A DNA stretch of 33,273 nt from a bacterium (lineage in GTDB: Bacteria > Myxococcota_A > Bradymonadia > UBA7976 > UBA1532): the NCBI GenBank assembly GCA_030426085.1, contig JAUHYW010000093.1, positions 1 to 33,273 of the forward strand, given 5' to 3'. Positions 11,053 through 21,888 of this stretch are shown in pieces. Position numbers and translations under genes: made by a program. Position 1 is the stretch's first letter; each line of letters opens with the position of its first letter. A model generated the notes under the pieces. That model saw only the letters and a program-made list of their open reading frames with translations, was not told the origin of the DNA and made no database searches.

Positions 11053-12054
11053 TTATGCACCCCCGACCTCCCGACGCTCGACCTCGTGATGCTCGGCGCA
11101 GGTGGCTTCGATCTCGACGGTGCGATCGAGCAGCAGCGGCGAGGCCCCGTCCGGCAGGCAGATGTGTTGCTGACAGGTGTAGCCCTCCCGACACCCGGCG
11201 GTCGCGTCGCAGGTGCGATACCACGCCTCCAGCTCGACCCCGTCCCGCTCGGTCTCGACGAGCGCCATCGTCTCCGGCGGCTCCACGCCGCCCGCCACGT
11301 CGATGGCGCCCCCGTCGAGCACGCAATAACCCCCGGGCAGCGGGCCGTCAAGGTCGGCGAGCAGGCAGGTGCCCCCAGGGCCGCAGGCCGGATCGCCCTC
11401 GCCGGTGCACGCCGCGCCCACCCGCACCTCATAGGTCTCGTCGAGCGGGTATTCCGGCAGGGGCACGCCGCAGCGCAGGGGCAGCTCGACGAGGCCGTAG
11501 CCCGGGGTGACCGGGCGGGCGAGCGGGGTGGCGTCGGCGGCGAGGGATCCCCGGGCGTAATACACGAGCTGCGAGGGGCCGCCGCCGACCAGCTCGCCGA
11601 CGTCGAAGCGGGCGTCGCCGTCGCGATCCTCGTAGACCAGCAGCACGCCGTAGCTCAGGCCGTCGGCGGTGGTGTGCACGTCGGCGGGCGGCGCGGCGAA
11701 GACGTTGAGGTCGAAGTACCCCGGGAAGCGCACGGCGACGGCGATGGACGCCTGCTCGACCAGCGCCGCGTCGGGGGCGATGCCTTCGATGCGATCGAAG
11801 CCTTCGATGACGGTGCTCTCGGTGCCGGGCACCCGCTGGGCGGTGGGGTCGTATGGCAGCCAGAAGACGCCCGCCCGCAGGGCGAAGACATAGACCGGCT
11901 CGGCGCCGCTGCTGGCGAGCTGGCCCGAGTAGGCGAACAGCGGCTCGCCCCGGTAGCGCGCGTCGAGCAGCCCGTCGCCGCAGCCCCCGAGGGACGCAGC
12001 GAGGAGCAGCGCGAGCGACGCGCGCCGGGTGGCATGGATCGAGCTGCGCGCCAT
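11053..12054 (-). CDS. Unknown Cys-rich lipoprotein of the caspase operon
   Basis: A 333-residue protein. The ATG at 12054 overlaps the caspase stop (ATGA). Signal ATRRASLALLLAASLGGC ends in lipobox LGGC. The N-terminal half is beta-rich with an acidic loop DRDGDARFDVGEL that resembles a calcium-binding EF-like or dockerin-like loop. The C-terminal half has repeated Cys motifs (CTGEGDPACGPGGTCLL, then CDATAGCREGYTCQQHIC), a pattern common in myxobacterial surface lipoproteins. I do not recognise a named family. As the last gene of the sigma / anti-sigma / caspase operon it is a likely envelope partner of the caspase-barrel protein. Confidence 0.82.
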   Translation of the reverse strand: MARSSIHATRRASLALLLAASLGGCGDGLLDARYRGEPLFAYSGQLASSGAEPVYVFALRAGVFWLPYDPTAQRVPGTESTVIEGFDRIEGIAPDAALVEQASIAVAVRFPGYFDLNVFAAPPADVHTTADGLSYGVLLVYEDRDGDARFDVGELVGGGPSQLVYYARGSLAADATPLARPVTPGYGLVELPLRCGVPLPEYPLDETYEVRVGAACTGEGDPACGPGGTCLLADLDGPLPGGYCVLDGGAIDVAGGVEPPETMALVETERDGVELEAWYRTCDATAGCREGYTCQQHICLPDGASPLLLDRTVEIEATCAEHHEVERREVGGA

Positions 12055-13607
12055 CAGAACCGCACCCCCGGGCCGAGCGCGCCGAAGGCGCCGAAGCGGG
12101 TGTCCACCCGATCGCCGATCCGCGCGCCGTTGTCGATGCGGGCCACCCGGACGAGCTGGGTCACCGGGCCGCCCTCGAGCCGCAGGTAGACGCGCTCGCC
12201 GAGGTTCGCCTCGATCAGCACCAGCCCCGACAGCGCCAGCCCCCACGAGGCGGGGGTCGGGGCGCCAGCCTGCTCGACGTCCTGAGTCCGGTGCACCCCC
12301 TCGACGAGCAGCCCCAGGCCGGCGCTGAAGCCCGGTCGGTCGAGTATGCGGGCGATGCTCAGCCCCATGGCGTAGCTGCGCACCACGCCGTCGAGCCCTT
12401 CCGTGGCCCGGCTGTGCCCGAAGCGGGCCCGCACGCCGAGGGTCGCCCAGGGCAGCGTCAGGTCGTAGCCCAACCCGGCCCCGGCGGTGAGGCGGTGGCC
12501 ATCGAGCACCGGGCCGTGCACCGTGCCCCCGGCGTAGAGCCCGTGGGCCGCGCCGTCCCCGCCCTTGCGCACCAGCCGGGCGTAGGCCACCCGCCGCCCG
12601 GCGCGCTCGGCGAGGCCCACCGAGGCGCCGGCCTCCACCTCGACCCGATACTCTTCGTAATGATCGGGGAAGCGGGCCTGCACGAAGTAGTCCCCGGCGG
12701 GCAGGCTGATGGGCGTGCTCGGTCGATCGGTGGTCAGCTCGGCCCGCAGCGGGCCGTCGTCGGCGCCGTCCCGCACCAGGAAGGTCGTCGCCGCGTGCAG
12801 CACCAGCCGCCCGGTGTCGCGCACGCCGTCCAGCCGGGTCATCACGAAGTCGCCCCGCCCCTTGATGTCATAGGCATACGTCGGGTGCTGGAGCTGGCGG
12901 GTGCGACCGCTCGAAGCCAGCGTGCGCCGCGCCGCATAGGCATAGGCTTCGCTCAGGGTCACCCGGGCGTCGCCGTCCTCGTCCCCCGCCCCGACGAGCC
13001 CGGCGACGAGGTGGTGGGTGAAGAACGACCCCCCCAGCCGCTCGGACTCATGGCTGTCTTCGCCGGCCGCCGAGCTGGTCATGATGGCCAGCCCCTCGAC
13101 CTCGATGCGGTCGTCCAGCTCGATGTCGAACGCCTCGTCGACCACCCGGGCGCCCTTCACCCGGGTCGCCCCGCCCGAGCGGCAGCCGTCGAGGACCAGG
13201 GCCCGCACCCGGGCCGGCGAGCCGGCGACGATGGCCTGGAGCTCGTCGTACTTCAGCGTCGTGCCCGCCAGGTGCAGCCCCTCGGCGTCGGCGTGGCCCG
13301 AGTAGTACACGATCAGCGCGGTGTCGTCGGCCCCGTCGCGGCGGATGCGGGCGTTGAGGGCGTGCAGCGTCGCCCGCACCGCCTCGGCCTGCTCGCCGCG
13401 CACCTCGATGTAGTCGCTCGGCGCCACCCCGCCCAGCCGGCGCATCACCCCGCCGAAGCGCTCGGCGTCCCGCTCGGCGTAGCGCAGCGACAGCTCGCCG
13501 GGCAGGCCGTGGTTGTTGCCGATGGCCACGACCACCGTGCGGGCCGCGGCCGGGGTCACCAAGAGCGCGCCGGCCGCGATCACGAGGCTCGCGAGCGCCC
13601 GGCGCAT
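12054..13607 (-). CDS. Secreted caspase-family (C14) protein with C-terminal outer-membrane barrel
   Basis: A 517-residue protein. ATG 13607 overlaps the upstream stop and gives a clean Sec signal (LLVTPAAA, cut near 22). Residues 24-260 are a caspase-like domain: VVVAIGNN, YYSGHAD with H105, LVLDGCRSGG with C142, then SSAAGEDSHESERLGGSFFT and an acidic DEDGDARVTLSEA loop. The His-Cys dyad is intact. Residues about 265-350 form a beta-sandwich, PEGA-like linker (LPAGDYFVQARFP). Residues about 355-517 alternate polar and hydrophobic residues with Gly and aromatics and end in GVRF, the C-terminal Phe typical of outer-membrane barrels. A caspase tethered to an outer-membrane barrel suggests periplasmic or surface proteolysis; substrate unknown. 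The frame extends upstream, but that part overlaps the anti-sigma gene. Confidence 0.88.
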   Translation of the reverse strand: MRRALASLVIAAGALLVTPAAARTVVVAIGNNHGLPGELSLRYAERDAERFGGVMRRLGGVAPSDYIEVRGEQAEAVRATLHALNARIRRDGADDTALIVYYSGHADAEGLHLAGTTLKYDELQAIVAGSPARVRALVLDGCRSGGATRVKGARVVDEAFDIELDDRIEVEGLAIMTSSAAGEDSHESERLGGSFFTHHLVAGLVGAGDEDGDARVTLSEAYAYAARRTLASSGRTRQLQHPTYAYDIKGRGDFVMTRLDGVRDTGRLVLHAATTFLVRDGADDGPLRAELTTDRPSTPISLPAGDYFVQARFPDHYEEYRVEVEAGASVGLAERAGRRVAYARLVRKGGDGAAHGLYAGGTVHGPVLDGHRLTAGAGLGYDLTLPWATLGVRARFGHSRATEGLDGVVRSYAMGLSIARILDRPGFSAGLGLLVEGVHRTQDVEQAGAPTPASWGLALSGLVLIEANLGERVYLRLEGGPVTQLVRVARIDNGARIGDRVDTRFGAFGALGPGVRF

Positions 13608-14416
13608 CACGGCTTCGATCGCTTTTCGAGGGTGAAGCCGGCCGTGCGGCAGGCGGCGTCGGCGGTCGCGAGGCCCGCGTTGGTCGGTTTGAGCTGCTTC
13701 GAAGCGAACGCCTGAGGGCACCACACGAGCCAGATGCGCTCCTGCCCGACCGAGTCGTCGAGCACCGCCGAGCCGGGCAGCGAGCGATCGTCGCGCAGGG
13801 TGCCGTGGGCCGCGACCGAGCGCCCGTCGGCGGGGAAGTACGGGAAGAGCTGCCCCCCGGCCTCGACCCCGACGACCATGACGTGGCCCGGCCCTTCGGG
13901 CAGGTTGTCGACGACGAAGCGCAGGCGGTCGCCGGCGGTCGCGCTGTCGCCCGAGACGAGCGCGGTGACCGCGTCGCCCCGGGCCCGGAAGACCTCCAGC
14001 GCGAGGGCGCCCTTGGTGAGCACGACGTCGCCCGGATCCTCGACCCCGGGCCGGGCGAGGAAGACGACCGCCGCCGCCGCCGCCGCGAGGGCGAGGCCGC
14101 CGAAGAGCCACTGCCCCAGCGAGAAGCGGCGCCGGGGGGCCGGCCGGGGGGCGTCGGCCGCCGCCTCGGTCCCGCTCCGGGCCTCGGCGGCGTCGAGCCC
14201 CTGGCGGATGCGGGCCAGCATCGCCTGGGGCCGGGCCTGGGGCATCGCGTCGAAGCCGGCGCGCCGGGCCTCCACGAGCGCGGCGTTGGCCGGATCGGCC
14301 GCCATCCACGCCTCGACCGCGGCCGCCTCTTCGGGGTCGGCGTCGCCGGTGACGTAGGCGTCGAGGGTCAGCTCCGAGGGGCCCTCGGCGATGCGCGGAT
14401 CGAACGGATCGTTCAT
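13607..14416 (-). CDS. Membrane anti-sigma-like protein with DUF4384-like C-terminal domain
   Basis: A 269-residue protein. Residues 1-85 are acidic and helical (LTLDAYVTGDADPEEAAAVE, then EAWMAADPANAALVEARR), the pattern of anti-sigma N-termini, but without the HxxxCxxC zinc motif. One transmembrane helix lies at about 100-121. The C-terminal part is extracytoplasmic and beta-rich (GDRLRFVVDNLPEGPGHVMV, then LFPYFPADG), resembling DUF4384, a domain often found with caspase-like proteins. It ends with two Cys (WCPQAF, AACRTAG). It lies 94 bases after the sigma gene and overlaps the caspase start. The likely role is holding the ECF sigma inactive until an envelope signal is sensed. Confidence 0.82.
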   Translation of the reverse strand: MNDPFDPRIAEGPSELTLDAYVTGDADPEEAAAVEAWMAADPANAALVEARRAGFDAMPQARPQAMLARIRQGLDAAEARSGTEAAADAPRPAPRRRFSLGQWLFGGLALAAAAAAVVFLARPGVEDPGDVVLTKGALALEVFRARGDAVTALVSGDSATAGDRLRFVVDNLPEGPGHVMVVGVEAGGQLFPYFPADGRSVAAHGTLRDDRSLPGSAVLDDSVGQERIWLVWCPQAFASKQLKPTNAGLATADAACRTAGFTLEKRSKP

Positions 14417-14510
14417 GGTGAGTACCTCGCTGCTGACCTTTGAACCCGCCAGTTCGGTATCCGGGCAGATTTTTCTGCGGGGTTCGTGCGAATTCTGCGC
14501 GGCGCCCGGA

Positions 14511-15020
14511 TCACGGCCGCCTCGGCTCCCCGGCGGGGGCGTCCGCGAGGCGCGCGCGGGCCCAGCGGGTGAAGCGATCGCAGAGGTTGCCCACCGTGCG
14601 CCGGGAGACGCCGAGCACCCGGGCCGCCTCGGCGTGGCTCATGCCGTCGATGTAGACCGCCACCGCCGCCCGGGCCTGCTGCGCGTCGGCCTCGGCGAGC
14701 AGCCCCCGCAGCACGGTCATCTTCTGCGGGTCGCGGGCGACGCTGGTCGGGGCGACCTCGGCCTTGCGCGCGTCGAGCAACGCCCGGCGGCGCTTCGAGT
14801 CGCGGATCATGTTGAGGCAGTAGTTGGTCGTGATCCGATACAGCCAGGTCGACGGGCGGGCCTCGGCCACGAAGCGATCACCGGCCTTCATCGCCCGGAT
14901 GAAGACCTCCTGCGTCGCCTCTTCGGCGGCGTGGGGGTTGCCGAGGATCTGGAGGGCCCGCCGGTAGACCATCGGGCCGTACTGGCGGAAGAGCGTGTCG
15001 AGGTCCACGTCGAGGGGCAT
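14511..15020 (-). CDS. ECF-type RNA polymerase sigma factor
   Basis: A 169-residue protein starting MPLDVDLDTLFRQYGPMVYR, the usual ECF length. Region 2 runs to about residue 75, with AEEATQEVFIRAMKAGDRF and WLYRITTNYCLNMIRDSKRR. Region 4 is in the C-terminal third, with YIDGMSHAEAARVLGVSRRT as the helix-turn-helix. The ATG at 15020 is the first codon that preserves region 2; a frame continuing upstream has no sigma-like sequence. It heads the operon with the anti-sigma-like, caspase and lipoprotein genes and presumably drives its own operon. A weak -10-like TACAGT on the minus strand (15072-15067) lies 47 bases before the start. Confidence 0.92.
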   Translation of the reverse strand: MPLDVDLDTLFRQYGPMVYRRALQILGNPHAAEEATQEVFIRAMKAGDRFVAEARPSTWLYRITTNYCLNMIRDSKRRRALLDARKAEVAPTSVARDPQKMTVLRGLLAEADAQQARAAVAVYIDGMSHAEAARVLGVSRRTVGNLCDRFTRWARARLADAPAGEPRRP

Positions 15021-15209: not shown

Positions 15210-16151
15210 GTGTCCCCCCTGCCCGCCGCCGACATCCGGATCGATATTGCCCCGGCCCCGAGCGCGCCCCACCCGCCGCACCGCCGCCGGATCCGGCTCG
15301 GGCGGGTGCTGTGGGCCGCCTTCGGGGTCGCGGCGATCGGGGTCGCGGTGGGCACCATCGCGCTCGGCTGGGGCTACTACGCGCTGCCGGCAGTCGCCCG
15401 CCCGTGGGATCCGCTGCACGATACGCTCGGCGCCGGCGGCGAGTGGGGCCACGCGCTGGGCATGGTCGGATCGGGGCTGATGCTGGGCAACCTGCTCTAC
15501 CTCGTGCGCCGCCGCTGGGCCCGCTTCGGCCGGCTGGGATCGGTGCAGGCGTGGCTCGCCTTCCACGTCGCGGCGGGCACCGGCGGGGTGGCGCTGGTGC
15601 TGGCCCACAGCGGCGGCGACTTCACCAACCCCATCGCCCGGGTCTCGACGATCGCCGCGGTCGTGGTGCTGGTGACCGGGGTGCTCGGGCGCTGGATCTA
15701 CGGCCAGGTGTCCCGGGGCGACGACGGCGAGGCGGCCTCCGAAGGCGAGCTCGTCGGGCGGCTGCGGGCGGCGCTGCACGGGCTCGACCCCCGGCTGTGG
15801 GACGCCTCCGAGGCGACCCACGCGGCGCTCTCGGGGCTGCTGCCGCCCCCGGTGACCGGCCCTTGGGCCGCCGCCCGCATGCTGCCGGCCAGCCCCGTCG
15901 TCGCGCTGCGGCTGGCGGTGGTCGGGCGCCGCCTGCGCCGCCGGCTGACCGCCGAGCTGGGCCCGACCGACGCCCGAGCGGTGATGGCCGCCGCCCGCGC
16001 CGCCGTCGCCTATCGCCGGGCCGCCCGCCGCCAGCAGGGGTTCAAGGCCCTCATCGGGAGCTGGCGCAGCGTGCACCGCATCGCCACCTTCGTCCTCATC
16101 CTGACCCTCGTGGCCCACGTGGTGACGCTGTACGTCGTGGGGGGTGTGTGA
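15210..16151 (+). CDS. Polytopic membrane protein, probable haem-b electron-transfer subunit
   Basis: A 313-residue protein with a GTG start preceded by GAGGAGG. It has about five membrane helices (residues about 33-58, 78-99, 113-134, 146-168, 288-310) and a charged cytoplasmic-type loop between the fourth and fifth. Membrane-embedded or near-membrane His residues suit bis-His b-haem ligation: H81, H119, H133, H289 and H303. No close named family is recognised; ferric-reductase-like or cytochrome b561-like folds have similar layouts. Its stop overlaps the start of the 23-haem cytochrome. The position suggests it passes electrons from the quinone pool to the periplasmic cytochromes. Confidence 0.75.
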   Translation: MSPLPAADIRIDIAPAPSAPHPPHRRRIRLGRVLWAAFGVAAIGVAVGTIALGWGYYALPAVARPWDPLHDTLGAGGEWGHALGMVGSGLMLGNLLYLVRRRWARFGRLGSVQAWLAFHVAAGTGGVALVLAHSGGDFTNPIARVSTIAAVVVLVTGVLGRWIYGQVSRGDDGEAASEGELVGRLRAALHGLDPRLWDASEATHAALSGLLPPPVTGPWAAARMLPASPVVALRLAVVGRRLRRRLTAELGPTDARAVMAAARAAVAYRRAARRQQGFKALIGSWRSVHRIATFVLILTLVAHVVTLYVVGGV

Positions 16152-17908
16152 TGGCGCCGCGCGCCCCGTGGCCGGCGCTGGCGCTGGCGCTGCTCGTCGG
16201 CGCGCCCGCTGGAGCCCAGGTCCTGTCGCCGGGCCCGCTGGCGACGCCCCACGCCGACATCGACAGCGATGACGACTGCATGAAGTGCCACACCCGGGGC
16301 GAGGGCGTGCCCGACCGGCTGTGCCGCGACTGCCATACGCTCATCGACCAGCGCATCGCCCAGCGGCGGGGCTACCACGGCCGGGCGATCGGCGGGCGGA
16401 CCTGCGCCGACTGCCACAAAGATCACCGGGGGCGGGGCGCGGCCCTCATCCGCTGGCCGGGCGGGCGGCCGGAGCGGTTCTCCCACGTCCTCACCGGCTA
16501 CCGCCTCGACGGGGCCCACGCCGAGGTGGGCTGCCGGGACTGCCACACCCGCGCCCGCATCACCGAGCCCGAAGCCCGCGAGATCGACGGCACCTGGCTC
16601 GGCCTGCCCGACACCTGCGGCGAGTGCCACCACAGCGACGACCCCCACGACGGCGAGTTCGCCGGGCGGGCGTGCACCGAGTGCCACGGGCAGGTGCGGT
16701 GGTCCGAGCTGGATCGCTTCGATCACGACCGCGCCCGCTTCCCGCTCGTCGGGCAGCACGCCGAGGTCGCCTGCGGCGACTGCCACACACAGCCGCGCTA
16801 CACCGGCACCGCCACCGAGTGCGTCGACTGCCACCAGTCCCCGCACCCGGCCGAGGCCCGGTTCGGCGCGGACTGCGCGAGCTGCCACACGGCGCGCGGC
16901 TGGCAGCGCGTGATCTACCCCCGCGCCGACCACCGGTTCTTCCCGCTCGAAGGGGGCCACGCCCTCGACGACTGCGGCGCGTGCCATGGCGAGAAGGGCA
17001 ACGCCGCCCCCAGCCCGGCCTGCGGGCGCTGCCACGAGGACGTGCACGACGACCGCTTCGGGGCCCGGTGCCAGAGCTGCCACGACATCGTCGACTGGCG
17101 CAACGTGCGCCGGGACGCCTTCGACCACAGCCGCACCGCGTTCCCTCTGAAGGGGCTGCACGTCGCGGTGACGTGCGACGACTGCCACCCCCGAGGCAAG
17201 CTGAAGCCCATCGCCCACGATCGCTGCCTGGACTGCCACGCCGACCCTCACGAGGGCGAGGTGGGCGCCGACTGCGAGGGCTGCCACGTCGAGCAGGGGT
17301 TCCGCCCGGCGACCTGGCCTATCGCGAAGCACACGACGTTTGCTCTCGGCGGGGCGCATCGAGCGACGGCGTGCGACGACTGCCACCGGATCGAGGACGC
17401 GTGGCGCTTCCGCAAGGGCGTCGTCGAGTGCCATGAGTGCCATGAGGACCGCCACGGGGGGCAGTTCGGTGAGCGGGCGTGCACGACGTGCCACGTCGAC
17501 ACCCACTGGCGGCCGGCGTCGGCGTTCGATCACGCCGCGGTGTGGGCCCTCGAAGGCCAGCACGCCGAGGCCGCCTGCGGACACTGCCACGCGGGCGGGC
17601 GCTACGCCGAGACGCCCCGGGCGTGTGACGACTGCCACGGCGGGCCGCACCTGGGGCAGTTCGCGGCGACCTCGCCCCGGCTCGACTGCGCCGACTGCCA
17701 CACGCCGGCCGGCTGGAGCGGGACCTACGATCACACCCGCGCCTGGCCGCTCGACGGGGCCCACGCCGACGCCGAGTGTGACGCGTGCCACAAAGAGGTC
17801 GCGGTGGCCGACGGGCGCATGACCGTGCGCTGGCGGCTCGGCTTCACCGACTGCGCCCGGTGTCACTCGAGCCCCCACCGGGGATCCGACGCGGGAGGCG
17901 ACCGATGA
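16151..17908 (+). CDS. Secreted 23-haem c-type cytochrome
   Basis: A 585-residue protein with a Sec signal (ALALALLVGAPAGA). It has 23 CxxCH motifs, from CMKCH near residue 41 to CARCH near the C-terminus. Seven recurring modules of about 50-90 residues have the form H-x-x-x-x-F-x-L-x-G-x-H-A-x-x-x-C-x-x-CH, e.g. FDHDRARFPLVGQHAEVACG; extra His residues before each motif could act as distal haem ligands. This is the tandem cytochrome-c3-like architecture seen in large transenvelope haem wires. The start overlaps the membrane-protein stop. The haem count is by direct reading of the translation; the pathway role is inferred from context. Confidence 0.93.
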   Translation: MAPRAPWPALALALLVGAPAGAQVLSPGPLATPHADIDSDDDCMKCHTRGEGVPDRLCRDCHTLIDQRIAQRRGYHGRAIGGRTCADCHKDHRGRGAALIRWPGGRPERFSHVLTGYRLDGAHAEVGCRDCHTRARITEPEAREIDGTWLGLPDTCGECHHSDDPHDGEFAGRACTECHGQVRWSELDRFDHDRARFPLVGQHAEVACGDCHTQPRYTGTATECVDCHQSPHPAEARFGADCASCHTARGWQRVIYPRADHRFFPLEGGHALDDCGACHGEKGNAAPSPACGRCHEDVHDDRFGARCQSCHDIVDWRNVRRDAFDHSRTAFPLKGLHVAVTCDDCHPRGKLKPIAHDRCLDCHADPHEGEVGADCEGCHVEQGFRPATWPIAKHTTFALGGAHRATACDDCHRIEDAWRFRKGVVECHECHEDRHGGQFGERACTTCHVDTHWRPASAFDHAAVWALEGQHAEAACGHCHAGGRYAETPRACDDCHGGPHLGQFAATSPRLDCADCHTPAGWSGTYDHTRAWPLDGAHADAECDACHKEVAVADGRMTVRWRLGFTDCARCHSSPHRGSDAGGDR

Positions 17909-18867
17909 TCCAGGCGTTGTTGGTGGCCCTCTGCGCCGGCCCGCCCCTGCTGGCGGTGCCTCGGGGCGGCGCGGTCTTCGAGAAGTGCGACATGTGCCAC
18001 GTCGCGACCGACTGGCACACGATGCAGAGCGGGGCCGAGGGCTTCGATCACGATCCGACCGGCTTCCCGCTGCGGGGATCTCATCGGGGCGCGACCTGCA
18101 CCGACTGCCACGCGGATCGCCCGCTGCGGGACGGCGCCTGCAACGGCTGCCACACCGACCCCCACCGGGGCGAGAACCGCGGCGGGTGCGACGACTGCCA
18201 CGGCACGCTCGGCTGGGCCATCCCCCGGGCCCGGGCCGATCACCGCCGGCTGCGCCTGCCGCTCGTCGGGCGCCACGCCGGCGTGCCTTGCGCCGACTGC
18301 CACCCCAGCGCGATCGGCGATACGTACCGGGCGGTGGCCGACGACTGCGAGAGCTGCCACCGGGTGCAGGCGCTGTCCCCGGCGGTGCACCCGCCGCACG
18401 CCGGCTTCACCGCGACCTGCGACGCCTGCCACACGCCCTACGGCTGGCGCCCGGCCCGGGTGGCCCACGACCGCTTCTGGCCGCTGACCGGAGCCCACGC
18501 CGCGGCCGACTGCGGCGGGTGCCACACCGGCGGGCGCTACGGGGGCACGCCCACCGACTGCCAGAGCTGCCACGCCGCCGACTTCGCCGAGGGCCACCGG
18601 CCGGGCGAGTCGACCGCCTGCGCCGACTGCCACTCCACCCGGGCCTGGCTGCCGGCGAAGATGATCGACCACGATCGGTTCTTCCCCCTGCCCCACGAAG
18701 GCATCCGCGACTGCGGCGACTGCGCCCCCGACGGCACCGATCGCTTCACCTGCATGTCGTGCCACACCCACTCGCGGGATCGGATGGCCCGGGAGCACGA
18801 CGACGTGCGGGGCTACGCCTTCGTGGCGACCGACTGCCTGCGCTGCCACCCTCGGGGAGACGACTGA
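17905..18867 (+). CDS. Secreted 12-haem c-type cytochrome with one degenerate haem site
   Basis: A 320-residue protein. ATG 17905 overlaps the upstream stop and follows GGGAGG. A short signal (MIQALLVALCAGPPLLAVP) precedes CDMCH. Twelve CxxCH motifs are present. A thirteenth position, aligned with an intact motif in the next gene, reads CGDCA and lacks the proximal His. The same HxxxFPLxGxHxxxxCxxCH module is repeated. The C-terminal 70 residues (FPLPHEGIRDC to CLRCHPRGDD) align with the C-terminus of the next cytochrome (FRVPHEGVRRC to CLDCHPDGRD), showing paralogy. Likely a periplasmic relay between the 23-haem protein and the outer-membrane components. Confidence 0.9.
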   Translation: MIQALLVALCAGPPLLAVPRGGAVFEKCDMCHVATDWHTMQSGAEGFDHDPTGFPLRGSHRGATCTDCHADRPLRDGACNGCHTDPHRGENRGGCDDCHGTLGWAIPRARADHRRLRLPLVGRHAGVPCADCHPSAIGDTYRAVADDCESCHRVQALSPAVHPPHAGFTATCDACHTPYGWRPARVAHDRFWPLTGAHAAADCGGCHTGGRYGGTPTDCQSCHAADFAEGHRPGESTACADCHSTRAWLPAKMIDHDRFFPLPHEGIRDCGDCAPDGTDRFTCMSCHTHSRDRMAREHDDVRGYAFVATDCLRCHPRGDD

Positions 18868-19703
18868 TGAGACGCCCCCTGCTCGCCGGCCTCGCGCTGG
18901 CCCTGATCGCCTGCCAGAGCCCGCGGCACGAGAGCGTCGTGTTCGGCGGCGAGGACGGCACCTGCGACGACTGCCACCTCGCCGAGTACCAGACGTCGGC
19001 CTTCGACCACGGCTCGGTGGGCTACGGCCCCGGCTGCGCCGAGTGCCACCTCGAGACCACCTGGAGCCCCATCTTCGAGCCCGAGCACGACCGCTTCTTC
19101 CAGCTCCTGGGCCGGCACGCCGCCGCGCAGTGTCGGAGCTGCCACGCGCCAGGGCGGGCCGACCCCCAGCCGAGCGACTGCGTCGGGTGCCACGCGGCGG
19201 ACGCGGCGACGGCCGAGCCGAGCCACGACGGCTTCCCCCGAGCGTGCGGGGACTGCCACGGCGACGCCGCCTGGACCCCGGCGGCGTTCGGCGACCACGA
19301 TCGCTGGTGGCCGCTGGACGGGGCCCACGCGCAGACCGCGTGCGGGGGCTGCCACGTGGACGAGGTCTACGAAGGCACCCCCCGAGACTGCGTCGGTTGC
19401 CACGCCGCCGATCGGGACGCGGCGCGGCCGACCCATGTGCGGTTCGACGACACCTGCACCGCGTGCCACACCCAGGTCGCGTTCAGCCCGGCGACCTACG
19501 ACCACCGGCGGTTCAGAGTGCCGCACGAGGGCGTGCGGCGGTGCCTCGACTGCCACACCGACCCGCTGGACTACAGCCGCGTCGGCTGCACGCGCTGCCA
19601 CGAGCACCGGCGCAGCGAGGTCGACCCCGAGCACCGCGGCATCCGCGACTATCGCTACGCCGACGCCGCCTGCCTCGACTGCCACCCCGACGGGAGGGAC
19701 TGA
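18867..19703 (+). CDS. 11-haem c-type cytochrome lipoprotein
   Basis: A 278-residue protein. ATG 18867 overlaps the previous stop by one base. Signal MRRPLLAGLALALIACQS has lipobox LIAC, so it is membrane anchored, probably to the outer membrane. Eleven CxxCH motifs run from CDDCH near residue 33 to CLDCH at the end. The module EHDRFFQLLGRHAAAQCRSC and two similar ones match those in the two upstream cytochromes. Lipidation and the following barrel gene suggest it inserts into or docks on the barrel, as the cytochromes of porin-cytochrome conduits do. Confidence 0.92.
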   Translation: MRRPLLAGLALALIACQSPRHESVVFGGEDGTCDDCHLAEYQTSAFDHGSVGYGPGCAECHLETTWSPIFEPEHDRFFQLLGRHAAAQCRSCHAPGRADPQPSDCVGCHAADAATAEPSHDGFPRACGDCHGDAAWTPAAFGDHDRWWPLDGAHAQTACGGCHVDEVYEGTPRDCVGCHAADRDAARPTHVRFDDTCTACHTQVAFSPATYDHRRFRVPHEGVRRCLDCHTDPLDYSRVGCTRCHEHRRSEVDPEHRGIRDYRYADAACLDCHPDGRD

Positions 19704-19706
19704 GCC

Positions 19707-21269
19707 ATGGGCCCGATCACGGTCATCCTGGCGGCGGTCGTCACCTACGTCGCGCCGGACGGGGTCTACCTCGACGAAGGCGCCGTCGACGGGGTGCGCG
19801 AGGGCGACGTCGTGCAGATCGGCGACACCCGGCTGACGGTCATCGCCGTCTCGCCCGAGCAGGCGCGGACCGACCCCCCGCCGAACCCCTTCGCGCTGCG
19901 CATCGGCGCCGAGGCCCGCATCCAGAGGACCGGCGCGGTCGCCCCGCCGGCAGCCGATCCCGGCCCGCGCAAGGCCACGCCGCCGGCGATCGACGCGGGG
20001 GCCGCCGCCGGCTGGTGGCCCGCGGCGGGCGACGGCTGGGTCGAACCCCGGCCCCTGCCCGACGGGTCCCGCGCCGCCCCCGAGAGCGCCGACCGGGTCT
20101 TCGGCGTCCTGGGGATGGGCGGCCGACTGATCGACTACGGCGAGGCGACGTGGCGCGCCGAGGCCCACACCCGGCTGGCCATCGACGACGGGCGCCTCTG
20201 GTATCGCCACGACGCCCGGCTGCACCTCGATCGCCACGGCGGGCGCCACCCCCAGGCGCCGCTCGAGGTCCGCCGCCTGGAGGCCGGCTGGCGCGACGCG
20301 GGCTGGGGGCTGCGCGGGGGGCGCATGGTGCTGGCCGATCCGCTGGCAGCGGCCTCGCTCGACGGGGCCGCGCTCACCATCCGCGACGTGGGCCTCGACA
20401 CCGTCCGGCTCTTCGCCGGGCTGGCCCCCCACCCCTTCGACCTCGACCCCGAGAGCCGCAACCCCCAGGTCGGCGTGTCGACGGCCAAGCGGGTGGACTT
20501 CGGGGGCGACGGCGACGGGCTCACCGTCCGGGCGACGGCGCTGGTGAGCGGCTTCGACGGCGCGCTCGACCGGGCCGCGCTGGCGCCGGATCTGACGCTC
20601 TACGCCGGCCCGGTGCGGGTGCTGGCCCGGGCCGAGCTCGACACCCACCCCGACCGCACGCGGCAGGGCCCGGTGCAGGCGACCCGGCTGTACGGCGCGG
20701 TGCGGGTCGAGCTGACCGACGGGCTCGACGCCCAGGCCCGCTACGATCGCTACGCCCCGCCCGACACCCCCTCGACCGCCGCGCTGGGGCCCGTCGCGAG
20801 CACGCACCGCCAGACGGGCTACGCCGATCTGCGGCTCGACGGCGGATCGCTCGGCGTCACCCGGATCTCGGCGGCGATCATGGACGGCGCCGACGGCCCG
20901 CTGGTGGTCCCCGGCCTCGACTACTGGGTGGCGCTGAGCGAGCACCTCGATCTGTCGCTGGGGGCCTTCGACCGGCGCGACGGGCGGCTGCACATCGTGC
21001 ACGGGCGGGCCTCGGCGACGCTGCGGTGGGATGCCCCGTGGCCGATCAGCCTCGACCTCGGCGCCCGGGTGCGCGACGTGGGGCACGCCGATCGGGCCGA
21101 GCTCGATCACACGACGCTGACCGGCGAGATCGGGCTGTGGATGGCGACCCCGGCCGGGCTCGACCTGCGGCTGGCCGCCGAGCGCAGCGCCGAGGCCCGG
21201 GTCGGCGACGGGGCGGTGGCGCCGGCGACCATCGTCTTCGCCGATCTGCGGTGGCGCTTCGGCCGCTGA
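19707..21269 (+). CDS. Predicted outer-membrane beta-barrel (porin partner of the cytochromes)
   Basis: A 520-residue protein 3 bases after the cytochrome lipoprotein stop, with GGGAGG upstream of ATG. A short hydrophobic N-terminus leads into a small beta domain (YLDEGAVDGVREGDVVQIGD), then an Ala/Pro-rich linker to about residue 110. From about 130 to the end the sequence is a long series of amphipathic strands with alternating hydrophobics and short Gly/Asp turns (e.g. LRGGRMVLADPLAA, then VRVLARAELDTH), ending FADLRWRFGR. This is the texture of a 20-plus-strand barrel. No family such as MtrB/PioB is recognisable by eye. Context supports a role as the pore sheathing the haem wire. Confidence 0.75.
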   Translation: MGPITVILAAVVTYVAPDGVYLDEGAVDGVREGDVVQIGDTRLTVIAVSPEQARTDPPPNPFALRIGAEARIQRTGAVAPPAADPGPRKATPPAIDAGAAAGWWPAAGDGWVEPRPLPDGSRAAPESADRVFGVLGMGGRLIDYGEATWRAEAHTRLAIDDGRLWYRHDARLHLDRHGGRHPQAPLEVRRLEAGWRDAGWGLRGGRMVLADPLAAASLDGAALTIRDVGLDTVRLFAGLAPHPFDLDPESRNPQVGVSTAKRVDFGGDGDGLTVRATALVSGFDGALDRAALAPDLTLYAGPVRVLARAELDTHPDRTRQGPVQATRLYGAVRVELTDGLDAQARYDRYAPPDTPSTAALGPVASTHRQTGYADLRLDGGSLGVTRISAAIMDGADGPLVVPGLDYWVALSEHLDLSLGAFDRRDGRLHIVHGRASATLRWDAPWPISLDLGARVRDVGHADRAELDHTTLTGEIGLWMATPAGLDLRLAAERSAEARVGDGAVAPATIVFADLRWRFGR

Positions 21270-21360: not shown

Positions 21361-21888
21361 GTGCGCCGGTTTGCTTCCGCCATCATCGCCTTCGCCCTCG
21401 CCGCGCCGCTGGTGGCCCAGGCCCAGCCCCGGGCCCACCGCGAGCAGCGGGTCGGGCTGGCCATCGCGCCGCTGAAGCTGCTCCAGCCGGTGGGCGAGCT
21501 TCAGGTCGAGGTGCTGCTGTCCGAGACCTTCTCGGCGGTGGCCATCGCCGGCTTCGGCCAGACCACCGTCGAAGACAGCGACCCCTTCACCACGATCATC
21601 GGCGGGCTCCAGCTCCGGGCGTACTTCCACGGCAGCTCCGAAGAGGGCGGGTTCGTCACGCTCGAAGGGCGCTACGTCTCCCAGTCGGGGCCGGGCACCG
21701 GCTACGGCATCTCGGCCGGGCCGACCCTGGGCTACAAGTGGGCCTGGGAGAACGTCTTCATCGACCTCAACGGCGGCCTCGGCTTCCACTACCTGTCGGC
21801 CGAGTCGACCCGGGACGGCGTCACCGCCACGGCCACCGAGGTCGATGCGGTGCCCCTGCTCAACTTCACGGTCGGCTGGGGCCTCTGA
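21361..21888 (+). CDS. Small outer-membrane beta-barrel protein
   Basis: A 175-residue protein with a GTG start and a Sec signal (RRFASAIIAFALAAPLVAQA). The mature part has about eight amphipathic strands (RVGLAIAPLKLL, FSAVAIAGFGQTTV, LQLRAYFHGSS, VTLEGRYVSQSG, GISAGPTLGYKWAWENVF, LNFTVGWGL), consistent with an 8-stranded barrel and resembling DUF3575-type proteins. A TTGACT at 21303-21308 could be a -35 box, so it may have its own promoter 91 bases after the large barrel gene. Function unknown; it may belong to the conduit or be independent. Confidence 0.78.
   Translation: MRRFASAIIAFALAAPLVAQAQPRAHREQRVGLAIAPLKLLQPVGELQVEVLLSETFSAVAIAGFGQTTVEDSDPFTTIIGGLQLRAYFHGSSEEGGFVTLEGRYVSQSGPGTGYGISAGPTLGYKWAWENVFIDLNGGLGFHYLSAESTRDGVTATATEVDAVPLLNFTVGWGL

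Follow-up and report, generated by a model that had tools for sequence, protein, structure and literature searches.

A candidate outer-membrane haem conduit in Myxococcota with a flavoprotein as its possible electron donor

The gene set and its cytochromes

The window, a stretch of 33,273 nucleotides that makes up an entire contig of a 10.1 Mb genome in 178 contigs, holds five forward-strand genes between positions 15210 and 21269, and we found the open reading frames and starts of these genes where a preliminary description of the sequence had placed them. They encode a putative di-haem-b membrane protein of 313 residues with about five transmembrane helices (A, 15210-16151), a secreted cytochrome of 585 residues with 23 CxxCH motifs (B, 16151-17908), a secreted cytochrome of 320 residues with 12 motifs (C, 17905-18867), a lipoprotein cytochrome of 278 residues with 11 motifs (D, 18867-19703) and a 520-residue outer-membrane beta-barrel candidate with a small N-terminal domain (E, 19707-21269). 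A and B overlap by one base, B and C by four (ATGA) and C and D by one, and a gap of three bases separates D from E. Junctions this tight make translational coupling, as first proposed, plausible across all four. Genes for cytochrome c assembly lie elsewhere in the genome. On the reverse strand, an ECF-type sigma factor gene (14511-15020; Sigma70_r2, 4.1e-20) diverges from the set and may encode its regulator; it is also present in a sister genome, where the gene for its putative anti-sigma partner (13607-14416, reverse strand; DUF4880 match below the cut-off) occupies the same place. With a gene for a caspase-domain protein, these two form a divergent trio (12054-15020) common to both genomes. 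The gene directly 3' of E (21361-21888) encodes a small, secreted, DUF3575-like protein that probably forms a small barrel and is not kept with the set.

Together, B, C and D carry motifs for 46 c-type haems; when their residues were shuffled, CxxCH occurred on average 0.31, 0.17 and 0.15 times, respectively, and never more than three times. The counts stand as originally given with one amendment, in that the closest relatives of C have 13 motifs and the window copy has 12, one having decayed to CGDCA (18712-18726, forward strand), which alignments place opposite CGDCH in the sister genome. Possible distal histidines outnumber the haems in all three proteins (29 in B, 15 in C and 12 in D), so bis-His ligation of every haem would be possible. 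All three score above the Cytochrome_C7 (PF14522) cut-off of 24.8 bits, with 109 bits for B (E-value 8.7e-32), 64 for C and 58 for D, and their matches in Pfam and NCBIfam are confined to generic c3/c7 families; a search of the PDB with B alone gave no match. The profiles of C and B align with a probability of 99.9%, and D is built of regular tandem trihaem units of 70 residues, which bears out the proposal that one module, HxxxFPLxGxHxxxxCxxCH, is reused in the three cytochromes. The profile of C retrieved only other multihaem cytochromes, the best being UndA (5.7e-10), a match that indicates general kinship only. In other families C consists of a 10-haem core, to which the family of the window adds a three-haem insertion; a structure prediction for C from four sequences was unusable (pLDDT 34.8). 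D has a lipobox at its N terminus, as do several of its orthologues, and its description as a lipoprotein holds.

The AlphaFold2 model of E, made from four sequences, has 21 strands and a mean pLDDT of 50, with values of approximately 70-80 over much of residues 260-490. Its 50 best matches by VIA are outer-membrane barrels (Z 14.4-16.4), and the top rows of the Foldseek and VIA searches contain almost nothing else. The barrel of the Mtr complex (6r2q_B) reaches a Z of 15.3, a value that it shares with many outer-membrane barrels and that was obtained with a low-confidence model. HHalign related E to the distant barrel genes of other Myxococcota sets with a probability of 98% over 483 columns, and E has a short signal peptide. 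Neither Pfam nor NCBIfam contained a match to E at E<=1, and no MtrB/PioB family was found among ten E members. These data support the assignment of E as an outer-membrane barrel, and it behaves as one throughout the fold comparisons, although the weakness of the model leaves this short of proof.

Whether the cytochromes reach across the outer membrane depends on how C, D and E are arranged. B, C and D might instead store electrons or supply reductases within the periplasm or at the outer membrane, with the barrel an unrelated transporter. This arrangement would fit the general resemblance of E to outer-membrane barrels, among which the Mtr barrel is merely tied, and the surface exposure of D and the contact between C and E are both deduced; the lipid anchor of D could face the periplasm. 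However, the gene for C adjoins the barrel gene in every complete set that we read closely, including a set in Emticicia in which a C-like 40-haem gene lies beside a barrel-like gene. We therefore consider the arrangement without a crossing unlikely, and some form of conduit across the outer membrane highly probable.

Membrane protein A and a flavoprotein partner

Four histidines of A (H119, H133, H289 and H303) are invariant in 12 homologues. Two of them lie in TM3 and two in TM5, with a spacing of 14 residues in each pair, and A thus has the two pairs of helix-borne histidines seen in the di-haem cytochrome b / ferric-reductase-like superfamily. This conservation supports the earlier reading of A as a haem-b membrane protein and makes the four residues candidate ligands of two haems, which in this arrangement would be stacked across the membrane. 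Basic loops follow TM2 and join TM4 to TM5, the latter being long, and both are placed in the cytoplasm by hydropathy and charge only. A has no CxxCH motif and hence no c haem, unlike the tetrahaem membrane cytochromes of the NapC/NirT type. Family assignments are weak throughout: DUF4405 matches 11 of the 12 members (best 1.7e-5), Ni_hydr_CYTB (cytochrome b561) three and Ferric_reduct two, and the match of the A encoded in the window itself falls below the cut-off.

We found that A has a recurrent partner, a flavoprotein of approximately 440 residues (X) with an N-terminal transmembrane helix, two Fe-S motifs and FAD and NAD(P) glycine motifs. Of 45 A-type loci, 36 encode X either at most 7.5 kb from A or as a fusion with it, the fusion occurring in six; the other nine have no X nearby, in some cases owing to a contig end. 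In the fusion that we examined (L091), the helix of X comes after the last helix of A and before the Fe-S part, and would thereby bring the flavin domain back into the cytoplasm. The nearest named relatives of X are YpdA and thioredoxin reductase, both far below the equivalog cut-offs (132 bits against 340, and 90 against 343, respectively). Outside the Fe-S motifs no cysteine of X is invariant, so that electrons would be expected to exit through the Fe-S clusters rather than through a disulphide. In both Fe-S motifs of X (L145, 8366-9745, and homologues) the second cysteine is replaced, giving CxxSxxCxxxC and CxxHxxCxxxCP, which are invariant in eight proteins; the clusters may be ligated in an unusual way or be of the 3Fe-4S type. 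In the genome of the window, X stands alone on another contig (C108, 44365-45744) next to a short-chain dehydrogenase gene, and the sister genome has an orthologue at the same conserved separate site; these solitary copies share approximately 60% identity with clustered X. Lying outside the window, X was not visible to the preliminary description, and it is the relatives that link it to the A of the window.

The recurrence of X near A, together with the six fusions, points to NAD(P)H over quinol as the electron donor. The preliminary description had placed an inner-membrane quinol oxidase at the entry of the conduit, a label that our analysis does not support as it stands. The main alternative is that A takes electrons from (mena)quinol in the manner of CbcL- or CymA-type proteins, with X separate or accessory. 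The broad di-haem cytochrome b group to which A belongs, with its weak cytochrome b561 matches, would accommodate such a role, as would the distance between X and A in the genome of the window and its sister, and the c-haem counts of the CbcL family, which run from 3 to 23 (PMC6295460), also fit. Against this stand the strong linkage of X to A, with its fusions, and the build of the CbcL type, a single polypeptide with mostly six transmembrane segments and three conserved histidines (PMC6295460), whereas A has about five segments, four histidines and no c haem. On balance, we regard quinol feeding as rather doubtful, although it is the most serious of the alternatives, and we favour NAD(P)H as the donor.

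Distribution and haem numbers of related sets

Close relatives of A were found on four contigs in a named genome collection, all of them metagenome-assembled and two labelled Myxococcota or Myxococcales; such named relatives assign the genome of the window to Myxococcota. A search with an A profile, which also takes in a fused A' type, identified A-like proteins in 98 of 379 Myxococcota genomes. Within its family, E is present in 7 of 12 other genomes; outside it, one weak, broken match was found. A cytochrome with at least 18 haems is encoded near A in 38 of the 45 A-type loci and a recognisable barrel in 23, the misses being due in part to contig ends or to barrels beyond the profile. In other families the genes are laid out as X, D, A, B (23 haems), C (10 haems) and E. 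Most of the carriers are Myxococcota that are not known as metal respirers.

A plasmid search with the 23-haem B led to a set outside Myxococcota, on plasmid pEMTOL02 of Emticicia oligotrophica DSM 17448 (Bacteroidota; L147, 6589-18387; locus tags EMTOL_RS21090-21110). It encodes, in this order, CcsA, A (1e-53 by profile), X (8e-153), B (5e-154, with exactly 23 haems), a C-like 40-haem cytochrome of 1001 residues and, adjoining the last, a barrel-like protein with a weak match (6e-10) to the barrel profile of the A' type; a sigma factor gene diverges from the front of the set, as in the window. The annotation of these genes is merely hypothetical, NAD(P)-binding or cytochrome c3 family. The novelty suggested for the locus is not local: no described conduit was found among the homologues, and the set recurs in Myxococcota and in Emticicia. 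This range suggests that conduits of the A-E kind are commoner than believed, and, E. oligotrophica being a culture-collection isolate, the plasmid makes the idea testable there.

Other clusters bear a looser relation to the set. The genome of the window has a second related set (L037, contig C132, 2943-10428) that encodes a lipoprotein-like protein, A', B' and a barrel. A' is a 681-residue fusion of a cyclic-nucleotide-binding-like part, a 4Fe-4S part and a cytochrome b, and all complete copies of its family have a B' with exactly 30 haems. A further cluster in the same genome (L038, contig C61, 3874-12146) has frames with 18, 30 and 10 haems. A minimal relative, in which an A-like protein is paired with a B-like protein of 7 haems, is encoded on conjugative plasmids of Sphingomonadaceae (L148, 3252-7494), where the neighbouring genes encode a 2Fe-2S protein, a DUF1622 protein and a copper-binding protein.

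The haem numbers of B and D vary in different ways. A count of 23 motifs is shared by the seven members of the B profile, without exception, by B of further Myxococcota loci and by the Emticicia protein; 20 were found in three loci of one family, and 21 or 27 in more distant sub-types. In some loci B- and C-like cytochromes form one frame with 35-36 haems, as would be expected of adjoining wires. D has 5, 8, 11, 14, 17, 20, 23 or 29 haems, and all 17 of the mutually related lipoproteins examined, which come from sets with separate A and X, obey the form 2+3n; where A and X are fused, the neighbouring lipoprotein has 10 or 13. The first four members suggested steps of six haems, a rule that we gave up on finding members with 5, 8, 14 and 20 haems; three-haem steps hold. 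These sequences indicate that D grows in length by trihaem units of 70 residues. An inner wire of fixed length and an outer wire free to vary would be expected if B spans the periplasm and D only reaches outwards, a reading drawn from related members and from a B that is nearly, not strictly, constant. The pairing of a near-constant B with a D that follows 2+3n offers a test of whether the width of the periplasm sets the length of a haem wire.

Proposed electron path and comparison with known conduits

On the basis of gene content, coupling, haem motifs, conserved ligands, synteny, the A-X fusion and protein lengths, we propose a path that would carry electrons outwards from NAD(P)H. Electrons would enter the FAD and the two Fe-S clusters of X and pass to A, whose two stacked b haems would take them across the inner membrane, one held by H119 and H289 on the cytoplasmic side and the other by H133 and H303 on the periplasmic side. 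From A they would move along the 23-haem wire of B, which would span the periplasm, to C, which would sit in or at barrel E, for passage through the outer membrane. The lipoprotein D would then serve as an outer terminal wire, its length evolving by trihaem units, and deliver electrons to an external acceptor, for which soluble or mineral Fe(III) and humic quinones are guesses. We hold this complete path, from X through A, B and C/E to D, to be somewhat favoured.

Outward flow is itself inferred. In principle a haem wire can conduct either way, and the sequences set no direction, so electrons from an external donor, such as Fe(II) or partner cells, might enter the cell along the same path and could reduce NAD(P)+ by way of X. 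Reduction of NAD(P)+ by most external donors would be uphill, however, and no genes for carbon fixation or donor oxidation were seen in the window; we consider the inward direction very unlikely. The sets may form a widespread and so far undescribed class of conduit that connects cytoplasmic NAD(P)H with the cell surface without the quinone pool, with an X-A unit, a periplasmic wire of fixed length and an outer wire that changes in trihaem steps. We put this reading forward tentatively, as a possibility somewhat short of an even chance. CymA, CbcL and ImcH, the entry points into extracellular electron transfer reviewed in PMC6295460, take their electrons from quinol; a conserved unit in which an NAD(P)H flavoprotein is linked with a membrane protein bearing b haems and with a haem wire would, if true, be a different one.

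A haem-b membrane protein, a long periplasmic cytochrome, a barrel and a lipoprotein cytochrome make up the conduit-type layout recognized in the preliminary description, and our analysis supports it. As in porin-cytochrome extracellular conduits, the barrel, here a low-confidence model, is encoded with multihaem cytochromes. Also in line with that description, which had set the locus apart from MtrABC and CymA, no MtrB, Mtr/Dms decahaem, NapC/CymA or Geobacter Ext assignment rose above its cut-off: the DmsE/MtrA-family decahaem model TIGR03508 gave 22-32 bits against 192, the NrfH model 28 bits against 134 with D, and ExtN/ExtO 16 bits against 200, with no match to the other Ext models at E<=1. 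Like MtrCAB of Shewanella, the set combines a barrel, multihaem cytochromes and an outer lipoprotein cytochrome in one cluster, and the core of C has the haem number of MtrA (10); it differs in its 23-haem B and in that a di-haem-b entry protein, with a flavoprotein as partner, stands in the place of CymA. The Geobacter OmbB-OmaB-OmcB (Pcc) and Ext conduits likewise have a porin and cytochromes in one operon, with other haem numbers and another entry module; for Pcc, the comparison is one of general organization.

The trihaem-repeat 'nanowire' cytochromes of the c7 type resemble B, C and D in their c7 family matches and D in being a string of trihaem units, each about 70 residues long. In contrast to them, B, C and D fall below the NCBIfam nanowire_3heme cut-off and occur together with a barrel and a b-type membrane protein; D, moreover, is a lipoprotein. 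In ferric reductases and NADPH oxidases, electrons from pyridine nucleotide reach the outer side of the membrane by way of FAD and two stacked b haems. The order of carriers proposed here would be a functional analogue, except that X is a thioredoxin-reductase/YpdA-like protein with Fe-S clusters and that electrons would continue to c-haem wires. The inner-membrane quinol oxidases CbcL, MtrH and MtoC also associate a b-type membrane part with many c haems, but do so in a single polypeptide, the c haems being N-terminal and the b-type domain C-terminal (PMC6295460); here A, with its four invariant histidines, and B, with its 23 c haems, are encoded by separate genes, and the recurrent partner is a flavoprotein.

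We found no description of the gene set in the openly accessible papers covered. Surveys list many unassigned multihaem and porin-cytochrome sets, including some from Myxococcota and Bacteroidota (PMC11495043, PMC11475568, PMC6344600), and putative novel porin-cytochrome sets are mentioned for Bacteroidetes in too little detail to be matched (PMC6344600); parts of the A-E set may lie unnamed in such lists. The set would work like MtrCAB and the Geobacter conduits and yet fails the sequence-family tests of MtrCAB and of the Ext conduits, and its entry module is unlike CymA and unlike CbcL as defined in PMC6295460.
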